Assembly (NCBI GenBank): GCA_009841635.1
Contig: VXLJ01000037.1
Coordinates: 1 to 63,278 of the forward strand
Reading direction: 5' to 3'
Source of the DNA: Gammaproteobacteria bacterium
Lineage (GTDB): Bacteria > Pseudomonadota > Gammaproteobacteria > Pseudomonadales > Azotimanducaceae
Length of the DNA: 63,278 nt
Both the position numbers and the translations under genes were made by a program. Below the pieces are notes generated by a model. The model was given only the letters and a program-made list of their open reading frames with translations, had not been told where the DNA came from and made no database searches. Below are positions 50,118 through 60,756 of the stretch, one piece after another. Position 1 is the stretch's first letter; each line of letters begins with the position of its first letter.

Positions 50118-51101
50118 GTGTCCGAATTCAAGGCAGGCTTCGTCGAGTCGATCGGCAATACCCCACTCATTCGACTAAATGCCGCATCGGCCAGTACCGG
50201 ATGCGAGATTTTCGGGAAAGCTGAATTTCTAAACCCAGGCGGTTCGGTAAAGGATCGCGCAGCTTGGTGGATGATCCGCGAGGCTGAAAAAAAAGGCGAG
50301 CTGCGACCCGGTGGCACGGTGGTCGAAGGTACGGCGGGTAATACGGGTATTGGGTTAGCCCACATATGCAATGCGCGTGGCTATCAATGCGTCATCTACA
50401 TGCCGGACAATCAATCGCGCGAAAAGGTCGACATACTGCGTACGCTCGGTGCGGAAGTGCGCGTGGTTCCAACCGTGCCTTACAAGGACGACAACAACTA
50501 TCAAAAGCAAGCGGGTCGTTATGCAGCAACGCTAGATCATGCGATTTGGGCAAACCAATTCGACAACACTGCTAATCTGCTCGCTCACTACCAATCGACA
50601 GGGCCAGAGATATGGCGCGATACGGATCAGACGATTTCTGCGTTTGTCACTTCGGTTGGCACCGGCGGCACGCTCGCTGGGGTGTCGCAGTATTTGAAAG
50701 AACAAAACCAAGATGTGCAGATTGTGCTCGCAGACTGCATGGGTAGCGCTTTGTATAGCTATGTTTCTACTGGCGAAGCAATCATGAGCGAAGGCCCTTC
50801 GATTACTGAGGGGATTGGCAATAGTCGCGTCACCGATAACTTTGCGGAGGCACAAGTGGACTGGGCGGTGCAAGTACCGGATCAGGCGATGGTAGATGTC
50901 ATTTACCATCTGCTCCGAGACGAAGGATGGTTTTTAGGATCGAGTAGCGGGATCAATGTCTGCGGAGCCATCCAAGTTGCCAACAGGTTAGGGCCTGGAC
51001 ACACCATCGTGACGATCTTGAGCGATACGGGTAGCAAGTACCAATCGCGACTATTCAATCGCGAGTGGATGGCCGCACAGAATTTGTCGATTCCGAGCTA
51101 A
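50118..51101 (+). CDS. Cysteine synthase family PLP enzyme
   Basis: Fold-type II PLP enzyme, 327 aa. The cofactor lysine is in NPGGSVKDRAA, the substrate loop is GTAGNTGIGLA, the phosphate-binding motif is GTGGTLAG, and the C-terminal SSSGIN segment is present. Its sequence is somewhat off the typical CysK/CysM consensus, so it could make cysteine, or act as a cystathionine-beta-synthase-like or related enzyme. The GTG start at 50118 fits. It converges on the ABC-propeller fusion gene through a 4-bp overlap. Confidence 0.87.
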   Translation: MSEFKAGFVESIGNTPLIRLNAASASTGCEIFGKAEFLNPGGSVKDRAAWWMIREAEKKGELRPGGTVVEGTAGNTGIGLAHICNARGYQCVIYMPDNQSREKVDILRTLGAEVRVVPTVPYKDDNNYQKQAGRYAATLDHAIWANQFDNTANLLAHYQSTGPEIWRDTDQTISAFVTSVGTGGTLAGVSQYLKEQNQDVQIVLADCMGSALYSYVSTGEAIMSEGPSITEGIGNSRVTDNFAEAQVDWAVQVPDQAMVDVIYHLLRDEGWFLGSSSGINVCGAIQVANRLGPGHTIVTILSDTGSKYQSRLFNREWMAAQNLSIPS

Positions 51102-52852
51102 TTTAGGCGTGGTTGCACGGCGGCTGGTGTCAATTTAAGTCCGCTTATCGGTGCTTCATAGCGGTATACGCCGCCGCGGCGATCGCCATCGACGCCATTC
51201 GAACCTGAAACAATATAAAGCGTTCGCAAACCAGCTCCACCAAAACATACGCTCGTACACATCGGCACTGGAATCTCTATGGCAGTGCGTTCAGATCCGT
51301 TTGGGTTTATCACCAACACGCGACCTGGGAGAAATTGCGATGCTGTTTCATCGTGCGGTGAATCACCATTCACGCGTTCGCGCATCACATTGGCAACCCA
51401 TAGCGAACCATCTTCGGCGATCGCCAAACCGTCAGGTGAGCCGCTGTCAAACTCGAAGAAAACTTCGCGCGGTTTCAACTCCCCTGCTTTGTCAATTTCA
51501 TAGCGATAAATCTGCCTGCGTCTAGAGTCGGCGTGGTATAGCGCTTTGCCATCTGGCGAGAATCCCAAGCCATTGGTCAGTTGGATATCCTCGGCAACGA
51601 TCCGACTGGAACCATCGAGATCGATGACATACAGATCGCCAGCGCGAGGTTCTAACCCGTCATCAAATACTGGACTTGAGCCAAGCGACCCGGCGTAGAT
51701 TCGACCATGTACGTCCGTCGTTATGTCGTTGTACCCAACGTTGCCATTGTCGGGATCGCGATCTAGCAATAGCACGCTTTCAGTTTCACCGAAGCGCTTC
51801 AAAGAGACGTTCTTGCCACTGACAACCAAGCCGCCATCGACATGGTCGACCATGCCGCCAATGCCCCGTCGATGCTCGAATACTGGTGTAACTTGCCGGG
51901 CGTTGTCCACAGCGTATACGCCGCCATAAAGCACATCGCTAAACAGCAGTCCGTAATCGTCATGCCATACAGGCCCTTCTACAAGACCATAACCTTCTAC
52001 CACAGGTTCAGCGTGATCCAGAATAGAGCGTTCCGCGGGTTGCATACGAATGTCGGGGTCTGGCGACGGGATCGCAGAAAGCAACAGCTTGGTGTAGTTC
52101 CGTTGCGGTTTGTCGAATACATCGTCTACGTCACCACGCTCAACAACTACGCCGTTGTGCATGACTAATACATTGTTGCAGATGTGGCGCACAACTGCGA
52201 GATCATGCGCGACAAAGATGTACGTCAGGTGCAACGTTTTCTGAAGATCTTCAAGCAAATTGATGATTTGTGCCTGTACAGAGACGTCCAATGCGGATAC
52301 GGTCTCGTCACAAACGACTAGATTAGGGCGGAGAATCAATGCCCTGGCAATGCCGATTCGTTGTCGTTGCCCACCGGAAAACGCATGTGGGTATCGAGTC
52401 AGCGAGTCTTGGCTGAGTTGCACTAAATCAAGCATTTCACGCACGCGTTCTAAGCGTTCGTCACGGTCGCGTTCACCATGCACGATCAATGGTTCTTCGA
52501 TGATCTGCCGAACGGTCATGCGAGGATTTAGTGATGAATAAGGATCCTGAAAGACCATCTGCATCTCTTTTCGCAAAGGCACCAGTTCACGGTGCTTCAA
52601 CGTCGAAAGCGTGACCCAGTCGCCGGTCTCCTCACTCATAAATTCGACGCTGCCGCCTAGGTCCGGATCAATCGCGCGTAGGATGCAACGCGCTAGCGTT
52701 GTTTTACCTGAACCTGACTCACCCACGACGCCTAGTGTGTCGGCACGTGCAAGATCGAAAGAGACATCCTGCAATGCGACATGTCCGTCAAAGGTCTTGC
52801 TTAGATGCCGAACTTTGAGGATGCGCCCGTCGTCGCCAGCCTTTGTGTTCAT
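51098..52852 (-). CDS. Oligopeptide-type ABC ATPase fused to SMP-30/gluconolactonase propeller
   Basis: Single 584-aa protein of two parts. Residues 1-270 are a DppF/OppF-type importer ATPase with Walker A GESGSGKT (44-51), signature SGGQR (159-163), Walker B LVVCDE and switch His216. Residues about 285-584 are an SMP-30/gluconolactonase/LRE propeller whose metal and substrate residues are all present: Glu292, Asn375, Asn427 and Asp474, spaced almost as in the human SMP30 residues Glu18, Asn103, Asn154 and Asp204. No stop or frame change lies between the parts. It follows the DppD-type ATPase with no gap, so it is the F component of the importer. A lactonase tethered to the inner face of the transporter could open an imported lactone (inference). 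Confidence 0.88.
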   Translation of the reverse strand: MNTKAGDDGRILKVRHLSKTFDGHVALQDVSFDLARADTLGVVGESGSGKTTLARCILRAIDPDLGGSVEFMSEETGDWVTLSTLKHRELVPLRKEMQMVFQDPYSSLNPRMTVRQIIEEPLIVHGERDRDERLERVREMLDLVQLSQDSLTRYPHAFSGGQRQRIGIARALILRPNLVVCDETVSALDVSVQAQIINLLEDLQKTLHLTYIFVAHDLAVVRHICNNVLVMHNGVVVERGDVDDVFDKPQRNYTKLLLSAIPSPDPDIRMQPAERSILDHAEPVVEGYGLVEGPVWHDDYGLLFSDVLYGGVYAVDNARQVTPVFEHRRGIGGMVDHVDGGLVVSGKNVSLKRFGETESVLLLDRDPDNGNVGYNDITTDVHGRIYAGSLGSSPVFDDGLEPRAGDLYVIDLDGSSRIVAEDIQLTNGLGFSPDGKALYHADSRRRQIYRYEIDKAGELKPREVFFEFDSGSPDGLAIAEDGSLWVANVMRERVNGDSPHDETASQFLPGRVLVINPNGSERTAIEIPVPMCTSVCFGGAGLRTLYIVSGSNGVDGDRRGGVYRYEAPISGLKLTPAAVQPRLN

Positions 52853-53773
52853 TTATGGTTGACTCACCATACGCCCGTCGCCAACGTCTTTCAGTGGATA
52901 CGGGGTGGTAATGTCTGCATCGCCGACAGAGGTTGCGATGGTTGCCAAACGCTGATTCTTGGGAACAATGCCTGGTATGGCAGCTAGCAGGCCTTTCGTG
53001 TAAGGGTGCAATGGATCTTTTAGCACTTGACGCACAGTGCCGATTTCGAGCACCCGACCCTGGTACATGACAACGACATAGTCGGCAATCTGGGCAACAA
53101 TGCCGATATCGTGTGTGATGAAGATGATGGAGTTGTGCAGTTCTGCTTGCAGGTCCTTGATCAATGTCAAGATCTCAGCTTGAATCGTGACATCCAAGGC
53201 GGTCGTTGGCTCGTCACAGATCAATACCTCAGGATGGCAGACGAGCGCCATCGCGATCACCACGCGTTGGCGCATGCCACCAGAGAACTCGAAGGGATAC
53301 ATGTTTATTCGCGTGTCGACATCCGGGATGCCTACGCGTTGCAGCATGTCATGTGCTTCCGCTAAAGCTGCTTCTTTGCTTACCTGGCGGTGGCACAAAA
53401 TGGCTTCAGCCACTTGATTCCCTACTCGATACACTGGCGATAACGCTGTCATGGGTTCTTGAAACACCATGCTAATCAAACCGCCATGCAATTCATAGAT
53501 GCGGGGATCGCGATCTGCTACTTGCACTACGTCGAACGCTTCCCGTTCTGACGGTTCGAACATAATCGAGCCGCTCACGATTTCGCCTGGAGGCTGTAAT
53601 AAACGCATGATGCAATTAGCAGTCACAGACTTGCCAGAGCCCGATTCGCCAACGATGGCGGTCACTTTGCCTCGCGGTACGTCGAAATTCACGTCATTCA
53701 ACGCGTTCGTTATGCCCGTATCGGTGCGGAAGCGCACGCCTAAATTTCGAATTTCGAGGATGTTGTCGGTCAT
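52853..53773 (-). CDS. Peptide-type ABC importer ATPase (DppD/OppD-like)
   Basis: ABC ATPase of the oligopeptide/dipeptide family. Start ATG at 53773, giving 306 aa; the longer frame upstream lies inside the permease gene. Walker A GESGSGKS near 37-44, signature SGGMRQR, Walker B LICDEPT, and the C-terminal PLHPYTKGLL segment typical of DppD/OppD. The ATG overlaps the permease stop by one base. It pairs with the ATPase-propeller protein to power the importer. Confidence 0.93.
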   Translation of the reverse strand: MTDNILEIRNLGVRFRTDTGITNALNDVNFDVPRGKVTAIVGESGSGKSVTANCIMRLLQPPGEIVSGSIMFEPSEREAFDVVQVADRDPRIYELHGGLISMVFQEPMTALSPVYRVGNQVAEAILCHRQVSKEAALAEAHDMLQRVGIPDVDTRINMYPFEFSGGMRQRVVIAMALVCHPEVLICDEPTTALDVTIQAEILTLIKDLQAELHNSIIFITHDIGIVAQIADYVVVMYQGRVLEIGTVRQVLKDPLHPYTKGLLAAIPGIVPKNQRLATIATSVGDADITTPYPLKDVGDGRMVSQP

Positions 53774-54939
53774 CACAGACCGCCTGTGTTGTACGGATCT
53801 GCCGCGTCGCGCAGACCATCGCCGAGCACGTTGAATGCCATGACCGCGATGACCACGAACAAGCCAGGGTAGAGGATCCAAGGGGTCATCGAGATCACTT
53901 GATAGTTTTGCGCTTGTTCCATCAATACGCCCCAGCTAACAATCGGCGGCCGAATACCGATGCCCAGGAAGCTCAACGCTGTCTCACCCAATATCACCCC
54001 AGGTACAGCTAGCGTAGCCGTTGTGATCGTGTGACTCATGAAACTAGGCATCATGTGCTTGAAAATGATGCGATTCTGACCACTGCCGATCAGACGCGCC
54101 GCAATCACGAAGTCCTCATTGCGTAACGCTAGAAAGCGACCGCGCACCTGGCGTGCCAACGCTGTCCAGCCGAATAGCGACAGAATGATCGTGACCCCGA
54201 AGTAAATGCGCAATGAACTCCAGTGAGCCGGCAATGCTGCGGTTAATGCCATCCACAGTGGCAAGGTCGGCAATGATTGCAGCACCTCGATCATGCGTTG
54301 CACGATGCGGTCCACCCAGCCGCCTAAATAACCTGCAAACCCACCGAAAAAGACCCCAAGAATCAACGTCAAACCGATACCGAGCATGCCAATCGACAGC
54401 GAAATCCGCCCGCCATAAATGACGCGTGAGAGGACGTCGCGGCCTAGTTGGTCGGTACCAAGAAAATGGATATAGCCGGCACCAGTTTCGTCTTCCGCGA
54501 TGAATAGGTGGAGATTGCCATCGAACAGATTCCATAGTTCATATGGATCGCCGCGCGCGAAAAAGCGAAGCGGATATAGCTTCTCGGGATTCTCGCTGTA
54601 TTCGCGCGCCCAGGTTTCTTCATTGATGTGCAGGTCGTAGCCGTACACGAATGGGCGGAAATGAAAGGTCCCGTCGTGCTCAAAGAAGCGCACATCCATT
54701 GGCGGCGCATTGATTGCTGTTACGTTCCGATAGGTCGTGGCGTAGGGCGCAAAGAACTCGGCGAAACCTGCCACAAAATACATAAAAATCAGCACGCCGC
54801 CACTGACCAAGGCTAGTCGATGTCGTTTAAATCGCCGCCAAGCTAGCTGTTTAGGCGTGAGTAAATCGAGTTCTTCTGGCGCGACCTGCGCGATGGGATC
54901 TTGACTGTCTGGTGGTCTTTCGAGAACTGCTTCACTCAT
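53773..54939 (-). CDS. Peptide-type ABC importer permease (DppC/OppC-like)
   Basis: Inner-membrane permease, 388 aa. An N-terminal cytoplasmic tail and TM1 (near 40-60) are followed by a periplasmic insertion of about 100 residues, longer than in E. coli DppC (300 aa), then the binding-protein-dependent transport domain. The EAA loop with conserved glycine lies near 295 (AARLIGSGQNRI). LGTDQLGRDVLSRVIYG marks the start of the conserved half. It overlaps the DppB-like gene by 8 bp. Confidence 0.93.
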   Translation of the reverse strand: MSEAVLERPPDSQDPIAQVAPEELDLLTPKQLAWRRFKRHRLALVSGGVLIFMYFVAGFAEFFAPYATTYRNVTAINAPPMDVRFFEHDGTFHFRPFVYGYDLHINEETWAREYSENPEKLYPLRFFARGDPYELWNLFDGNLHLFIAEDETGAGYIHFLGTDQLGRDVLSRVIYGGRISLSIGMLGIGLTLILGVFFGGFAGYLGGWVDRIVQRMIEVLQSLPTLPLWMALTAALPAHWSSLRIYFGVTIILSLFGWTALARQVRGRFLALRNEDFVIAARLIGSGQNRIIFKHMMPSFMSHTITTATLAVPGVILGETALSFLGIGIRPPIVSWGVLMEQAQNYQVISMTPWILYPGLFVVIAVMAFNVLGDGLRDAADPYNTGGL

Positions 54940-55915
54940 AGCGAATCCTCGGGTCTGACCACGCTAAAACGAGGTCTGAAATAAGCATCCCAACAACTGT
55001 GAGGATGGCGAGCAGCATCAAGAAGCTACCCGCTAGGTACATATCCTGAGCAAGCAGTGCTTGCAATAGCATCCGCCCGGTCGTGGGCAAGTTCAAAACC
55101 ATGGATACGATCGCTTCGCCCGATATCAAGGTTGGCAGGAGCAAACCGAGCGTACTGATGAACGGATTGATGGCGATGCGTAATGGGTATTTAAAAATCA
55201 ACTTGACGGGTCGTACACCCTTGGCGCGAGCGGTGACCACATAAGGTTTATTGAGCTCGTCCAGGAGGTTCGCGCGCAATATGCGCATCGTCACCGCCGT
55301 ACCACCCATGCCGACGACGCTAGCTGGAATAGTCAGGCGGGTTAGCAAATCAAGCAACTTTGGCAACGACATCGCTTGATCTCGAAACTCAACGGAATAC
55401 AGTCCACCAATCGATACGCCAAACCACTCCCAGGCGAAGAACATCACCAGCAATGCGAGCAGGAAGTTTGGCGTTGCTAAACCAATGAGAGCGACAACGG
55501 TGATCGAGTAGTCGCCAATGGAATATTGACGAACGGCGGAGTAAATGCCGAAAGGCACTGCAACGATCCATGTGAATAGCACCGCCGAGACGGTTATGAG
55601 CAATGTATAGCCCAACCGCTCCCATACTAATTCGTTGACTGGTTTTGAAAAGATGTAGGAATACCCTAAATCTCCCTGCACAAAGTTGTAAATCCAACTC
55701 AGGTATTGCAAATACGGCGGTTTGTCCAGGTTGTAACGCGCGCGCAGGTTTTGGACGTACTCATCTGACGCCTGCATCCCTGACGCTTCCATCCGTTCGA
55801 GCGTGGAGGTGACGATATCGCCAGGCGGCAACTGAATGACGACGAACACGATAACGGATATGAACGCGAGGGTCAGCACCATGCCGCCTAAACGTTTTAT
55901 GACGTAACGAAGCAT
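54932..55915 (-). CDS. Peptide-type ABC importer permease (DppB/OppB-like)
   Basis: Inner-membrane permease, 327 aa. The N-terminal RYVIKRLGGMVLTL helix, the periplasmic GDLGYSY segment and the EAA-type loop near 225 (ARAKGVRPVKLIFKYPLR) match DppB/OppB. Six predicted membrane helices. It pairs with the DppC-like permease to form the pore. It starts 30 bp after the substrate-binding protein gene. Confidence 0.93.
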   Translation of the reverse strand: MLRYVIKRLGGMVLTLAFISVIVFVVIQLPPGDIVTSTLERMEASGMQASDEYVQNLRARYNLDKPPYLQYLSWIYNFVQGDLGYSYIFSKPVNELVWERLGYTLLITVSAVLFTWIVAVPFGIYSAVRQYSIGDYSITVVALIGLATPNFLLALLVMFFAWEWFGVSIGGLYSVEFRDQAMSLPKLLDLLTRLTIPASVVGMGGTAVTMRILRANLLDELNKPYVVTARAKGVRPVKLIFKYPLRIAINPFISTLGLLLPTLISGEAIVSMVLNLPTTGRMLLQALLAQDMYLAGSFLMLLAILTVVGMLISDLVLAWSDPRIRYE

Positions 55916-55945: not shown

Positions 55946-57907
55946 CTAGCGTGCTCCCTCGTCGATATACCAAGTTGCGGGATGGTTGGCGAGCGTCCAT
56001 CGATTGTCCCACCCCCAAATACCTTTTTCGGGTACGCCTTTCAAGCGCGATGAAACAACCACTGGGTGTGGGGCCAGACCTACTGTGCCGATCACCCATA
56101 AATTCTCAGAGCCGATCGCGAGCATTTTTTGACCAATCCGGTGCCGCTCGGCTTCATCCATCGCAACCCACATGTTGTCGACCGATTGTTGCAGGTCGCG
56201 CATAACCGGTGGCGGTTCAACACCTGCTTCACCTTCCTTCATGTACCACCGAGACCAATCGTTCCACATACCCCGGTCCCAGCTAATGGACCTTGCCACC
56301 CACCAGTCAGGGAACAACGGGAATAGGATGTCAGTGACTCGATCGGCATGCCAGAGGGTCATCTGCATTTCACCAGCGACGGCACGTTCACGCTGCAGAT
56401 TACCGTCCACCAGTTTCAACCTCAAATCGATGCCAATTTGTCGCCAGTATTCCTGCACCAGTTCCATCGTGATGCCTTTGGGCGTTTCAAAGTCGTAAAA
56501 CTCCAAAGTGATGGTGAGTCGTGAACCGTCTGGGAATTCCCGATAGCCATCGCCATCCAAATCCACCGCGCCAATCTCGTCTAGCAATTCCTTCGAATAT
56601 TCAGGCTTGTATTCAAGATATCGTTTTTCCCACTCTTCTTTGAAGAATGAGCTAGAAGGATGGACGGTTACCTGACGTGGGAATCCTCGCCCGAAATAGA
56701 TGATTTCATTCAACTCGTCGCGGTTGATCGCATGCGATAGTGCGGCGCGAAAACGAATATCCCAGTAGAGCTCTCGGTAGCGTTCGTCTTCGTAGTTGTA
56801 ATTTGGTTGGATGGCGACATCACTAGAGTGCAAACGTTGCCATATATGCACTTTGATTGCACCGTTGCGCTCACCTAATTTGAGTAGCGGAATATCCTGT
56901 GTACGCAATGCGAACGCCGCGAAATCCACCTGGGCAGTGGAAGCCATTGCGGCCATGATTTCGGCATTTTCGACCGTTTCCATATTGATTTGATCAATGT
57001 AAGGTAGCTGCCGCCCCTCAGGATCAACTTTTGGGTAATACGGATTGCGGAGGTACTTGCGCTTCATCGAGGAGCGCTCAACGAGCTTGAAGGCCCGCAG
57101 TGTTGGCACTTCAACGCTATCGTCTGAACCTTCACGCCGAATGTCATTGACTAGCTGCGTCCAATTCAGCGCCTCGTAGTCCTTGATCCGTTGGTCGAGC
57201 TCATCTTTATCGGTGTAGTACGGGTGAAAATCTTTCATGAAGTGCTTCGCATCGATCATGAAATCCCCGTACTGTGCGACGAAATTGATGAATAGAGGTC
57301 GTGGGGTTGGGAATTCATAGCGGAACAGCAAGTCGTCGACGACAACGACTTTAGATCCTTCGACGATGCGATAGGTCTCCGGGCTGTACTCGTCGTTATT
57401 CCATAAATCATTGAAGGTGAAGGCGAAATCGTGACTTGTCAGTGGCACGCCATCGGACCATTTAATACCGTCGCGCAACTTGATGGTGAGCGTCAAGCCG
57501 TCTTCACTTAACTCGAACCATTCAGCTAGGTTCGGAAAGAACGTCCGCATATCGGCCGAGATCGTAAACGCGGCTTCCCATTGAAAAAACTGCCAAAGAT
57601 CGTGTTGCGTTAGCCGCGCGATGCCCCCGTGATGGCCTGTTTCACGCAAGGGGTATACAACGATCGGGTCTTTAGGCAGGCGTTCCTCTAGCGGTGGTAG
57701 ATTTTGGAAATTTGGATGATCGATATCGCCCACGTAAAGTCGCGGGCTGTCACTGAATGTGGTGAGCCCGATTTCGCTCGCAGTGCGAAAAGGCGCGTAC
57801 CACTCCTCAGGCCACTCTTGCTCTTCAGCACTGATGTTGTGCACGAGCAATGTTGCTAACAGGACGGCATTGAGTAAGGAATGCGGATAGCGTTTGTGAC
57901 CGCGCAC
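55946..57907 (-). CDS. Family 5 extracellular solute-binding protein
   Basis: Periplasmic substrate-binding protein of the peptide/nickel/opine importer class, 653 aa. The signal peptide is about 1-27 (AVLLATLLVHNISA), with no lipobox. The mature part is rich in Trp, Asp and Glu, as in the larger YejA-like members (about 600 aa). The GTG start at 57907 has AGGGG seven bases upstream. First gene of the five-gene importer operon, divergent from the Ldh2-type gene. The ligand is unknown; the propeller and Ldh2 neighbours make a sugar acid or lactone as likely as a peptide (inference). Confidence 0.9.
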   Translation of the reverse strand: MRGHKRYPHSLLNAVLLATLLVHNISAEEQEWPEEWYAPFRTASEIGLTTFSDSPRLYVGDIDHPNFQNLPPLEERLPKDPIVVYPLRETGHHGGIARLTQHDLWQFFQWEAAFTISADMRTFFPNLAEWFELSEDGLTLTIKLRDGIKWSDGVPLTSHDFAFTFNDLWNNDEYSPETYRIVEGSKVVVVDDLLFRYEFPTPRPLFINFVAQYGDFMIDAKHFMKDFHPYYTDKDELDQRIKDYEALNWTQLVNDIRREGSDDSVEVPTLRAFKLVERSSMKRKYLRNPYYPKVDPEGRQLPYIDQINMETVENAEIMAAMASTAQVDFAAFALRTQDIPLLKLGERNGAIKVHIWQRLHSSDVAIQPNYNYEDERYRELYWDIRFRAALSHAINRDELNEIIYFGRGFPRQVTVHPSSSFFKEEWEKRYLEYKPEYSKELLDEIGAVDLDGDGYREFPDGSRLTITLEFYDFETPKGITMELVQEYWRQIGIDLRLKLVDGNLQRERAVAGEMQMTLWHADRVTDILFPLFPDWWVARSISWDRGMWNDWSRWYMKEGEAGVEPPPVMRDLQQSVDNMWVAMDEAERHRIGQKMLAIGSENLWVIGTVGLAPHPVVVSSRLKGVPEKGIWGWDNRWTLANHPATWYIDEGAR

Positions 57908-58065: not shown

Positions 58066-59130
58066 ATGCAACTTGCGGCCAGCCAATTAGAGGCGTTTGT
58101 TACCGAGATCTTCGTTGCCGCAGGTGCGGTGGAAAACGTCGCCCGACAGACGGCTGGGCATCTTGCGCTCGCGAATCTCAAAGGGCATGACTCCCACGGT
58201 GTTGTCATGGCGCCGTCTTATGTGACAAACATCAAGCGCGGTTTTTTAAACCCACATGCTCATATGAGCGTTGTCAAAGATTCAGGCGGCGTGGTGTTAA
58301 TTGACGGCGGGACTGGTTTTGGACAAGTTGTTGGTGCGGAATCGACTGCTTTTGCGATCGACCGTGCTCGCGACAACGGAATCGCTTGCGTGGGTCTGCG
58401 TAACGCTCATCATCTTGGGCGCATTGGAACGTACGGTGAAATGTGCGCGGACGCAGGGATGGTGTCGGTACATTTTGTCAATGTGGTTGGTCACGAACCA
58501 CTCGTTGCACCCTTCGGCGGCGCCGAAGCTCGCCTGCAAACAAATCCTTTTTGCACCGTCGTGCCTCGTGTGAACGGACCACCGATCGTATTGGATATGG
58601 CGACTAGCTTTATTGCATTTGGGAAAGTCAAGGTTGCATATAACGCTGGTAAGACCATTCGCAACGGCGCGCTGGTTGACCACGAAGGGGTTCCAACCAA
58701 TGATCCGAATGTGATGTTCACTCGTCCTGGCGGTTCTGTACAACCATTTGGACTTTACAAGGGATATGGCCTCGCATTGATGTGCGAATTGTTAGGCGGC
58801 GCACTAGTAGGCGAATGGACGATGCAACCGGCGCACGAGCGAACTGGCACGGTCATAAACAACATGCTCATGCTGGTTTTGAATCCAGAGGCGTTTGGTG
58901 GTACTGAACGTTTTCAGCAAGAAATCGACGGGATGGTCGACTATCTCTATGCCACGAAGCCAGCCAAAGGCGTCGACAAGGTGCGCATACCCGGTGAACC
59001 GGAGCGTGAGACGTTCGCTGACCGCTCTGTTAATGGCGTGCCAGTCGACGAGCGGTCCTGGCAGGAACTAGCAGGCGCGGCGAAATTAGCGGGTTTGGCC
59101 GAGGATGCGGTGGCGAAATACGCCGCCTGA
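58066..59130 (+). CDS. Ldh2/malate-L-lactate dehydrogenase family protein
   Basis: NAD(P)-dependent oxidoreductase of the Ldh2 family (sulfolactate, ureidoglycolate, 2,3-diketogulonate and related 2-hydroxy acid dehydrogenases), 354 aa. Conserved are KGHDSHGV (near 39-46) and NAHHLGRIGTY (near 109-119, with the catalytic histidine), and the LDMATS cofactor region near 177. It diverges from the solute-binding protein gene (158 bp between starts), so it may be co-regulated with the importer. Substrate cannot be read from sequence. Confidence 0.9.
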   Translation: MQLAASQLEAFVTEIFVAAGAVENVARQTAGHLALANLKGHDSHGVVMAPSYVTNIKRGFLNPHAHMSVVKDSGGVVLIDGGTGFGQVVGAESTAFAIDRARDNGIACVGLRNAHHLGRIGTYGEMCADAGMVSVHFVNVVGHEPLVAPFGGAEARLQTNPFCTVVPRVNGPPIVLDMATSFIAFGKVKVAYNAGKTIRNGALVDHEGVPTNDPNVMFTRPGGSVQPFGLYKGYGLALMCELLGGALVGEWTMQPAHERTGTVINNMLMLVLNPEAFGGTERFQQEIDGMVDYLYATKPAKGVDKVRIPGEPERETFADRSVNGVPVDERSWQELAGAAKLAGLAEDAVAKYAA

Positions 59131-59148: not shown

Positions 59149-60756
59149 TTACTGACGCACGACCACTTCGTCGGCTTTCATATCTAAGGCAGCATCCAAT
59201 AGGGCTTGGGTGTACTCAGTTTCAGGCGCTTCGAAAATCTTTTTCGAGTCACCTTGTTCCAAGATCACGCCGTCCCGCATGACAATAACCCAGTTCGCCA
59301 ACGCGCGCACAACTTTTAAATCGTGACTGACGAATAAGTAAGCGAGATCGTGGTCTCGTTGCAATTTGCGCAGCAGATCGACGATTTGTGCTTGCACAGA
59401 CATGTCCAACGCGGAGGTGGGTTCGTCGAGCACCACGAATTTCGGCTTTAACACCATCGCTCGTGCGATGGATATCCGTTGCCTTTGTCCACCTGAAAAC
59501 TCGTGCGGATAGCGAATCATCATGTCCGGATCGAGATCCACCTCGCGCATCACTTCGGCCACGCTTGCACGGCGCTCTGTTTTTGACATATGTGGATGAT
59601 GGACGCCAAGGCCTTCTTCAATAATGTTTTGCACCGACATACGCGGCGATAGACTGCCATAGGGATCTTGGAAGACAATCTGCATGTCCCGCCGCAGTTT
59701 CGTCAAATCTTTGCGCTTCAAGCCCTGAAGATTGGTGCCGTTAAAGGTCAATTCCCCTTCACTGGGGAGCATCCGCAGCATGGCGAGTCCTAGGGTCGTT
59801 TTACCTGAACCTGATTCACCGACGACGCCAACGGTTTGGCCTGCGCGGACAACGACGTCCACGTTGTCGACCGCGGTCAGAAAGTCGCTCTTCCCAAACC
59901 ATCCTTTGCCGAGCTGATAGCGCACGGTGAAGTTTGTTGCGGACGCCGTAACAGGTGCTTCTTGATTGGATTCGACTGGATCGCCAGAGGGTTCGGCTGC
60001 CAGCAGTGCTTGGGTGTATGCGTGCTTTGGCGCACCGAAGATTTGTTGGTTTTCACCATGTTCGACGATTTCGCCATTGTTCATCACGCAAACTCGATTT
60101 GCAGTGTGGCGGACGATGCCAAGATCATGCGTAATTAATAGGATCGCCATGTTGAGCTGATCTTGCAGATCTTGAAGGAGTTTCAGAATTTGCGCTTGAA
60201 TCGTCACATCTAAAGCGGTGGTAGGTTCATCCGCAATGAGCAGCTGTGGTTCGTTAGCCAACGCCATGGCGATCATCACGCGTTGCCGTTGTCCGCCAGA
60301 TAGTTCATGGGGGTAAGCGTTCAGGCGTTCTTCTGCGTTTTGCAAACCGACGAGTTCGAGCAATTCAAGCGTTCGTTCCCGTGCATCCCGTTTGGTCATA
60401 CCTCGATGGACGATGAGCGATTCCCCGACTTGCTTGGAAATCTTGTGCAGAGGGTTCAATGAGGTCATCGGCTCTTGGAAAATCATGCTGACCTTGACCC
60501 CGCGAATGTCCAAAAGCGCGTGGTTGGGTGCGCCCATGACCTCCGTGCCATCGACTTTAATACTGCCGGATGGATGTGAAGCTTGGGGGTACGGTAGTAG
60601 CTGCAATACCGATAGAGCGGTTACAGACTTGCCGGAGCCTGATTCGCCTACCAAGGCTACGGTTTCGCCCTGCTGAATGTCGAAGGAGACGCCGCGCACG
60701 GCTTCGTTCTCGCCGAAATTTACGCGCAGATCGTCGACTTCAAGGATTGCTCCCAA
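59149..60756 (-). CDS. YejF-like double ABC ATPase
   Basis: Two full ABC ATPase domains in one chain of 535 aa, as in YejF of the microcin C/peptide importer. First Walker A GESGSGKS (37-44), second GESGSGKT (313-320); each half has its SGGQRQR signature, Walker B and D-loop. This is a second set of importer ATPases near a transporter that already has two. No permease genes (YejB/E) accompany it, so it may serve the 51-58 kb importer, or an importer elsewhere. Confidence 0.92.
   Translation of the reverse strand: MGAILEVDDLRVNFGENEAVRGVSFDIQQGETVALVGESGSGKSVTALSVLQLLPYPQASHPSGSIKVDGTEVMGAPNHALLDIRGVKVSMIFQEPMTSLNPLHKISKQVGESLIVHRGMTKRDARERTLELLELVGLQNAEERLNAYPHELSGGQRQRVMIAMALANEPQLLIADEPTTALDVTIQAQILKLLQDLQDQLNMAILLITHDLGIVRHTANRVCVMNNGEIVEHGENQQIFGAPKHAYTQALLAAEPSGDPVESNQEAPVTASATNFTVRYQLGKGWFGKSDFLTAVDNVDVVVRAGQTVGVVGESGSGKTTLGLAMLRMLPSEGELTFNGTNLQGLKRKDLTKLRRDMQIVFQDPYGSLSPRMSVQNIIEEGLGVHHPHMSKTERRASVAEVMREVDLDPDMMIRYPHEFSGGQRQRISIARAMVLKPKFVVLDEPTSALDMSVQAQIVDLLRKLQRDHDLAYLFVSHDLKVVRALANWVIVMRDGVILEQGDSKKIFEAPETEYTQALLDAALDMKADEVVVRQ

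Follow-up and report, generated by a model that had tools for sequence, protein, structure and literature searches.

A single gene at positions 51,098 to 52,852 on the minus strand of the window (the whole stretch of 63,278 nucleotides analyzed here) truly joins two known parts, an ABC importer ATPase of the F type and a propeller of the SMP-30/gluconolactonase family, in a clade-specific fusion carried by a few uncultured bacteria. Its frame runs for 584 codons from an ATG with zero internal stops and contains Pfam domains of both kinds, as expected from the original prediction of one uninterrupted frame. At a probability of roughly 65%, we read the product as a two-domain protein in which an Opp/Dpp-like F-type ATPase carries a C-terminal, cytoplasmic metal hydrolase of the SMP-30 (lactonase) kind, the result of a merger of overlapping neighbors in which both halves work. 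The gene, its parts, and its main neighbors, with the evidence for each, are:

51098..52852, minus strand: fused gene encoding 584 aa, an F-type importer ATPase joined to an SMP-30/gluconolactonase propeller (frame, Pfam; recurs in five other genomes)
52043..52852, minus strand: ATPase half, residues 1-270, nucleotide-binding motifs present (Pfam, motif patterns, nearest solved chains)
52001..52042, minus strand: linker, about residues 271-284; the matching site in the two-gene relative L044 is a TAATG stop/start overlap (junction comparison)
51101..52000, minus strand: SMP-30 propeller half, residues 285-584, with Glu292, Asn375, Asn427, and Asp474 (Pfam, alignments, predicted model)
52853..53881, minus strand: D-type importer ATPase, listed from a TTG; the likelier start is the ATG at 53773, overlapping the end of the C gene (Pfam, NCBIfam)
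53773..54939, minus strand: importer permease C (Pfam, NCBIfam)
54932..55915, minus strand: importer permease B (Pfam, NCBIfam)
55946..57907, minus strand: substrate-binding protein of the importer (SBP_bac_5), similar overall to SPH1118 (Pfam, similarity)
58066..59130, plus strand: Ldh_2 family dehydrogenase, matched in 24/80 propeller loci (Pfam, tblastn)
50118..51101, plus strand: CysK-like PLP enzyme, matched in 30/80 propeller loci (Pfam, tblastn)

The ATPase half contains a complete set of motifs recognizable by pattern, with Walker A at residue 44, the Q-loop at 102, the signature FSGGQRQR at 158, Walker B (VVCDE) at 179, SALD at 186, and the H-loop at 216. Pfam places ABC_tran at residues 27 to 185 of the fused protein (101 bits) and oligo_HPY at residues 237 to 269, where the match covers 33 of 65 profile positions and scores 27.7 against a gathering score of 27.1; the second half of the oligo_HPY region is absent. 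None of the best 25 of 186 NCBIfam families reached its cut-off for a named transporter subunit (best PRK11308, 288 of 408 bits), and we therefore call this half F type rather than OppF or DppF. Its nearest solved chains are Opp/Dpp-type ATPases (Rv1281c 8j5q_D, DppD 8wd9_D, OppF 8z21_D, and DppF 8z1v_D), which it resembles in motifs, ABC_tran, the start of oligo_HPY, and operon place, and from which it differs in its short C-terminus followed by a propeller. That place is the F-subunit position, as foreseen: upstream on the same strand lie the D ATPase, the two permeases (C, then B), and the binding protein of family 5, the fused ATG follows immediately after the end of the D-type ATPase gene, and the fused gene is the second ATPase gene of an A-B-C-D-F operon.

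The propeller half is whole and carries the four active-site positions that had been predicted for it. The SGL match (PF08450) spans residues 292 to 550 and profile positions 3 to 245 of 246, at 168.4 bits against a curated cut-off of 26.3. Glu292, Asn375, Asn427, and Asp474 align with Glu18, Asn101, Asn146, and Asp196 of Caulobacter crescentus xylonolactonase (7plb_A) and with the Glu, Asn, Asn, and Asp of human regucalcin (3g4e_A), positions that we take to be the metal and substrate residues of SMP-30 enzymes. From residue 281 onward, 27 of the 31 blocks of the predicted model have a pLDDT of 84 to 97; Foldseek returns human SMP30 and the xylonolactonase as best matches (24 to 27% identity), and the half is modeled as a six-bladed propeller fold. 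Up to residue 280, pLDDT falls below 60 in 27 of 28 blocks of this model from a shallow alignment, probably because alignment depth was too small for the ATPase half. Fold and the four aligned residues are thus common to the window protein and the SMP-30/gluconolactonase family (PF08450; 7plb, 3g4e), but here the propeller is carried on a transport ATPase. According to the accessible text of PMC8529709, solved SMP30 members are six-bladed propellers that bind a divalent metal through Asn, Asp, or Glu, and the metal reported for the C. crescentus xylonolactonase is iron. Judged by these residues, the propeller is likely to be catalytically active. It also bears an 18-residue insert (window 51,329 to 51,382, minus strand; residues about 491 to 508) found in the window copy only among 81 aligned rows and modeled at pLDDT 54 to 63.

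The fusion recurs within the genus. A search with the propeller half at E ≤ 1e-20 found matches in 55 of 146 related genomes (own included). Among the 17 other same-genus genomes listed, four have a separate propeller gene (G003, G004, G006, and G014), eight have no match, and in five the two halves are joined, which answers the check originally proposed on related genomes. The five fused frames, of 565 to 573 residues, are in G001, G009, G015, G016, and G017 (loci L042, L043, L040, L039, and L041, respectively); all align over their full length to the window copy at 81 to 83% identity, making six fused genes with the window's. In a tree of 81 propellers, these six form one clade (support 100/99), with the propeller of the two-gene locus L044 (genome G004) as its sister at weaker support (88/64).

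Comparison with L044 suggests how the gene arose. There, the ATPase ends in ...TLGL and its TAA overlaps the propeller ATG as TAATG, in a different frame. Between the SAIPSPDPD and GYGLVEGP codons, which all of them share, L044 has 115 bases whereas every one of the six fused genes has 107, and this net difference of 8 bases yields a single frame without a stop. Overlapping operon neighbors were thus probably merged by a small net deletion, a single event that would have made one gene of two, and the observations are best explained by one origin of the fusion within one genus. Beyond that genus, gene content was read by tblastn because longest-frame lists miss genes in G+C-rich loci. G023, of another genus, has a free relative of the ATPase (68%, 271 residues, with the same short end) together with a D gene, and matches to B, C, and A are absent in the 19 kb read; G053, also of another genus, has relatives of B, C, D, and F at 67 to 74%. 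No propeller match lies next to the importer genes of either genome in the 19 kb read: the G053 propeller is ∼313 kb from the importer genes, and that of G023 is on another contig. Behind the free importer ATPase of G023 are two proteins (L136, 9311 to 11561) with no Pfam match at E ≤ 0.001.

We also searched more widely for the same domain pair. The whole protein or a six-row profile served as query against overlapping sets of 390 genomes of the order, 369 of the class, and 398 of the phylum; three best candidates per genome were scored in the order search, and the class and phylum searches used E ≤ 1e-85. No fused gene beyond the window's own and that of G009 appeared among the matches listed, which, given overlapping sets and strict thresholds, argues against close fused kin rather than against every distant ATPase–propeller pair. 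PF08450 at E ≤ 1e-30 gave 113 matches in 41 of 150 sampled phylum genomes, and the genome of the window accounts for four of these matches. Leaving aside the window propeller, 13 of the 113 lie in frames of at least 499 residues; for 12 of these, comparison with the ATPase half (phmmer and motif) matched no ATPase upstream of the propeller, although in two of the 12, L154 and L155, the upstream part is only 31 to 33 residues and the extra length lies downstream. In both, the propeller continues C-terminally into a second domain, which by eye looks like an isochorismatase-type hydrolase. The 13th long frame, G940 (604), was rejected by eye as a long open frame without an ATPase, as were G082 (745) and G027 (641) from their open reading frame lists. 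In a plasmid search that covered 5,000 records, at least 32 matched 80% or more of the query at one place (23 of the best 25 rows reach this coverage); none of these best 25 rows is a fused gene, since in each the matched region spans at least two annotated features. The samples searched therefore yielded no second lineage of ATPase–propeller fusions. Nor did the domain pair appear in the titles and abstract openings of the literature searched, a body of text that mostly excludes subscription papers; this agrees with the original remark that the design was not known as a described system, and is short of proof that the pair is undescribed.

In both halves, dN/dS is low where it could be computed. 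In Nei–Gojobori comparisons of the six fused genes (15 pairs), dN/dS was 0.007 to 0.044 for the ATPase (9/15 pairs computable) and 0.019 to 0.066 for the propeller (8/15 pairs), apart from L039–L040, where a propeller value of 0.49 is uninformative since it rests on too few changes (dN 0.005, dS 0.010). For pairs that include the window, the ratio was computable in 0/5 (ATPase) and 1/5 (propeller), the remainder being saturated at silent sites. Between the fused genes of L039 and L040, dS is 0.010 in the propeller and 0.343 in the ATPase, a pattern that exchange of the propeller part between lineages could produce. We judge a working two-domain protein probable from these sequence comparisons, and most likely both halves work and the fusion followed from the overlap of operon genes. 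Besides the fused gene, no second F gene was found in the window's importer operon, so the ATPase half would drive the importer together with the D subunit. The propeller half would act in the cytoplasm on a lactone or a similar ester, hydrolyzing it in the way presumed for its free-standing relatives. Through the fusion, the amount and location of the enzyme would follow those of the transporter; co-localization is a possible benefit. The fusion can be explained without any direct coupling of hydrolysis to transport.

Such coupling had been proposed from the start, and vectorial metabolism, in which a lactone, or a compound that forms one, enters through the importer and is opened by the tethered propeller on leaving the transporter, is the strongest alternative, one that we consider possible but unlikely. 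It draws on the single chain and single operon, on the low dN/dS of both halves among fused relatives, and on SMP-30 genes beside importers elsewhere: on Rhizobium phaseoli pBS3b an Opp-type operon is followed by VOC and then SMP-30, on a Roseibium aggregatum plasmid SMP-30 adjoins a sugar importer (both, unlike the window, with separate genes), and a third case is actinobacterial L109. Against it stand G053 (B, C, D, and F) and G023 (D and F), whose importer genes have no propeller in 19 kb, as well as the neighborhoods of 80 named propeller loci, many of them cut by contig ends, which we searched by tblastn with the window genes. A beta-lactamase-like gene was matched in 28 loci, DLH in 21, Fur in 21, YejF or other ATPases in 23, and PEP carboxylase in 0 of 80. 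Directly upstream of the propeller we found an F ATPase in six loci (five fused, one separate), a same-strand YejF-type double ATPase in 10, a divergent Ldh_2 in 19, no tested window gene in 40, and a contig end in five. In three loci of the same genus (L045, L046, and L048), a YejF-type ATPase precedes the propeller and no importer stands between the two. The window has its own YejF-type double ATPase (59,149 to 60,756, minus strand), and no permease gene was seen between it and the window end. (Four of the 44 rows in one alignment, namely YejF halves and an ATPase of L109, were misaligned and were dropped.) Permeases like those of the window occur in 7 of the 80 loci, namely the five fused ones, L044, and L109. 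Flanks of 3 kb or more on either side are available for 53 loci; five of these are fused, and only L044 and L109 of the 48 unfused ones have such permeases, in a test that is blind to importers of other families. The enzyme family thus does not depend on a window-type importer, which in turn weighs against the view that the fusion proves a coupled pathway. The propeller gene seems to be older at the locus and the importer a later arrival, and the proposed coupling of import to lactone opening is accordingly not supported.

The binding protein of the importer offers vectorial metabolism no further help. It is similar over its whole length (241 bits) to SPH1118, the pectin-binding protein of Sphingomonas sp. 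A1 according to the accessible text of PMC9314435, although 5ipw scores better. In one pairwise alignment, just 1 of the 16 ligand contacts named in that text is kept (Trp594), and none of the four pocket arginines (Arg57, Arg438, Arg466, and Arg496). An acidic-sugar cargo (pectin or uronate), suggested by kinship with SPH1118, is thus not supported as far as these named contacts go. That the protein is a clade-specific importer whose ATPase bears an active lactonase processing cargo at the transporter exit, a form of enzymatic trapping, we likewise consider possible but unlikely.

It is improbable that the gene makes two products, with an internal start at Met270 or proteolysis freeing the propeller and the fusion amounting to shifted gene borders only. 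Met270 is present in 6/6 fused rows and is Leu in L044, and the linker evolves more loosely than its flanks (dN/dS 0.02 to 0.32 in 13 pairs; dN above that of both halves in 14/15 pairs), but no Shine–Dalgarno-like run was seen by eye in the window just ahead of the Met270 ATG. We give slightly less weight to the idea that the propeller has lost catalysis and now replaces the usual F-subunit C-terminus in a regulatory or scaffolding role. The missing half of the oligo_HPY region, the insert peculiar to the window copy, and a propeller dN above ATPase dN in 14/15 pairs would fit this reading, but the four active-site residues are kept in 81/81 aligned propellers, fused rows included, and the ATPase is just as short where it is a free gene (L044 and G023). 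Removal of a stop by assembly or sequencing error, with separate genes in relatives, had been named as a possible refutation: relative L044 does have two genes, but the error itself is not credible, since in-frame fusions with different junction letters are present in six assemblies, five of them other than the window's.

A working ATPase–hydrolase fusion thus remains our preferred reading. Within one genus, the fused gene occurs alongside a free propeller gene and an overlapping gene pair; these bracket the fusion well and allow the attachment of an enzyme to a transport ATPase to be followed. Should the enzyme act on something other than the imported compound, this would be an instructive yet modest operon fusion; if it acts on the imported compound, import and the first metabolic step would be united in one complex.
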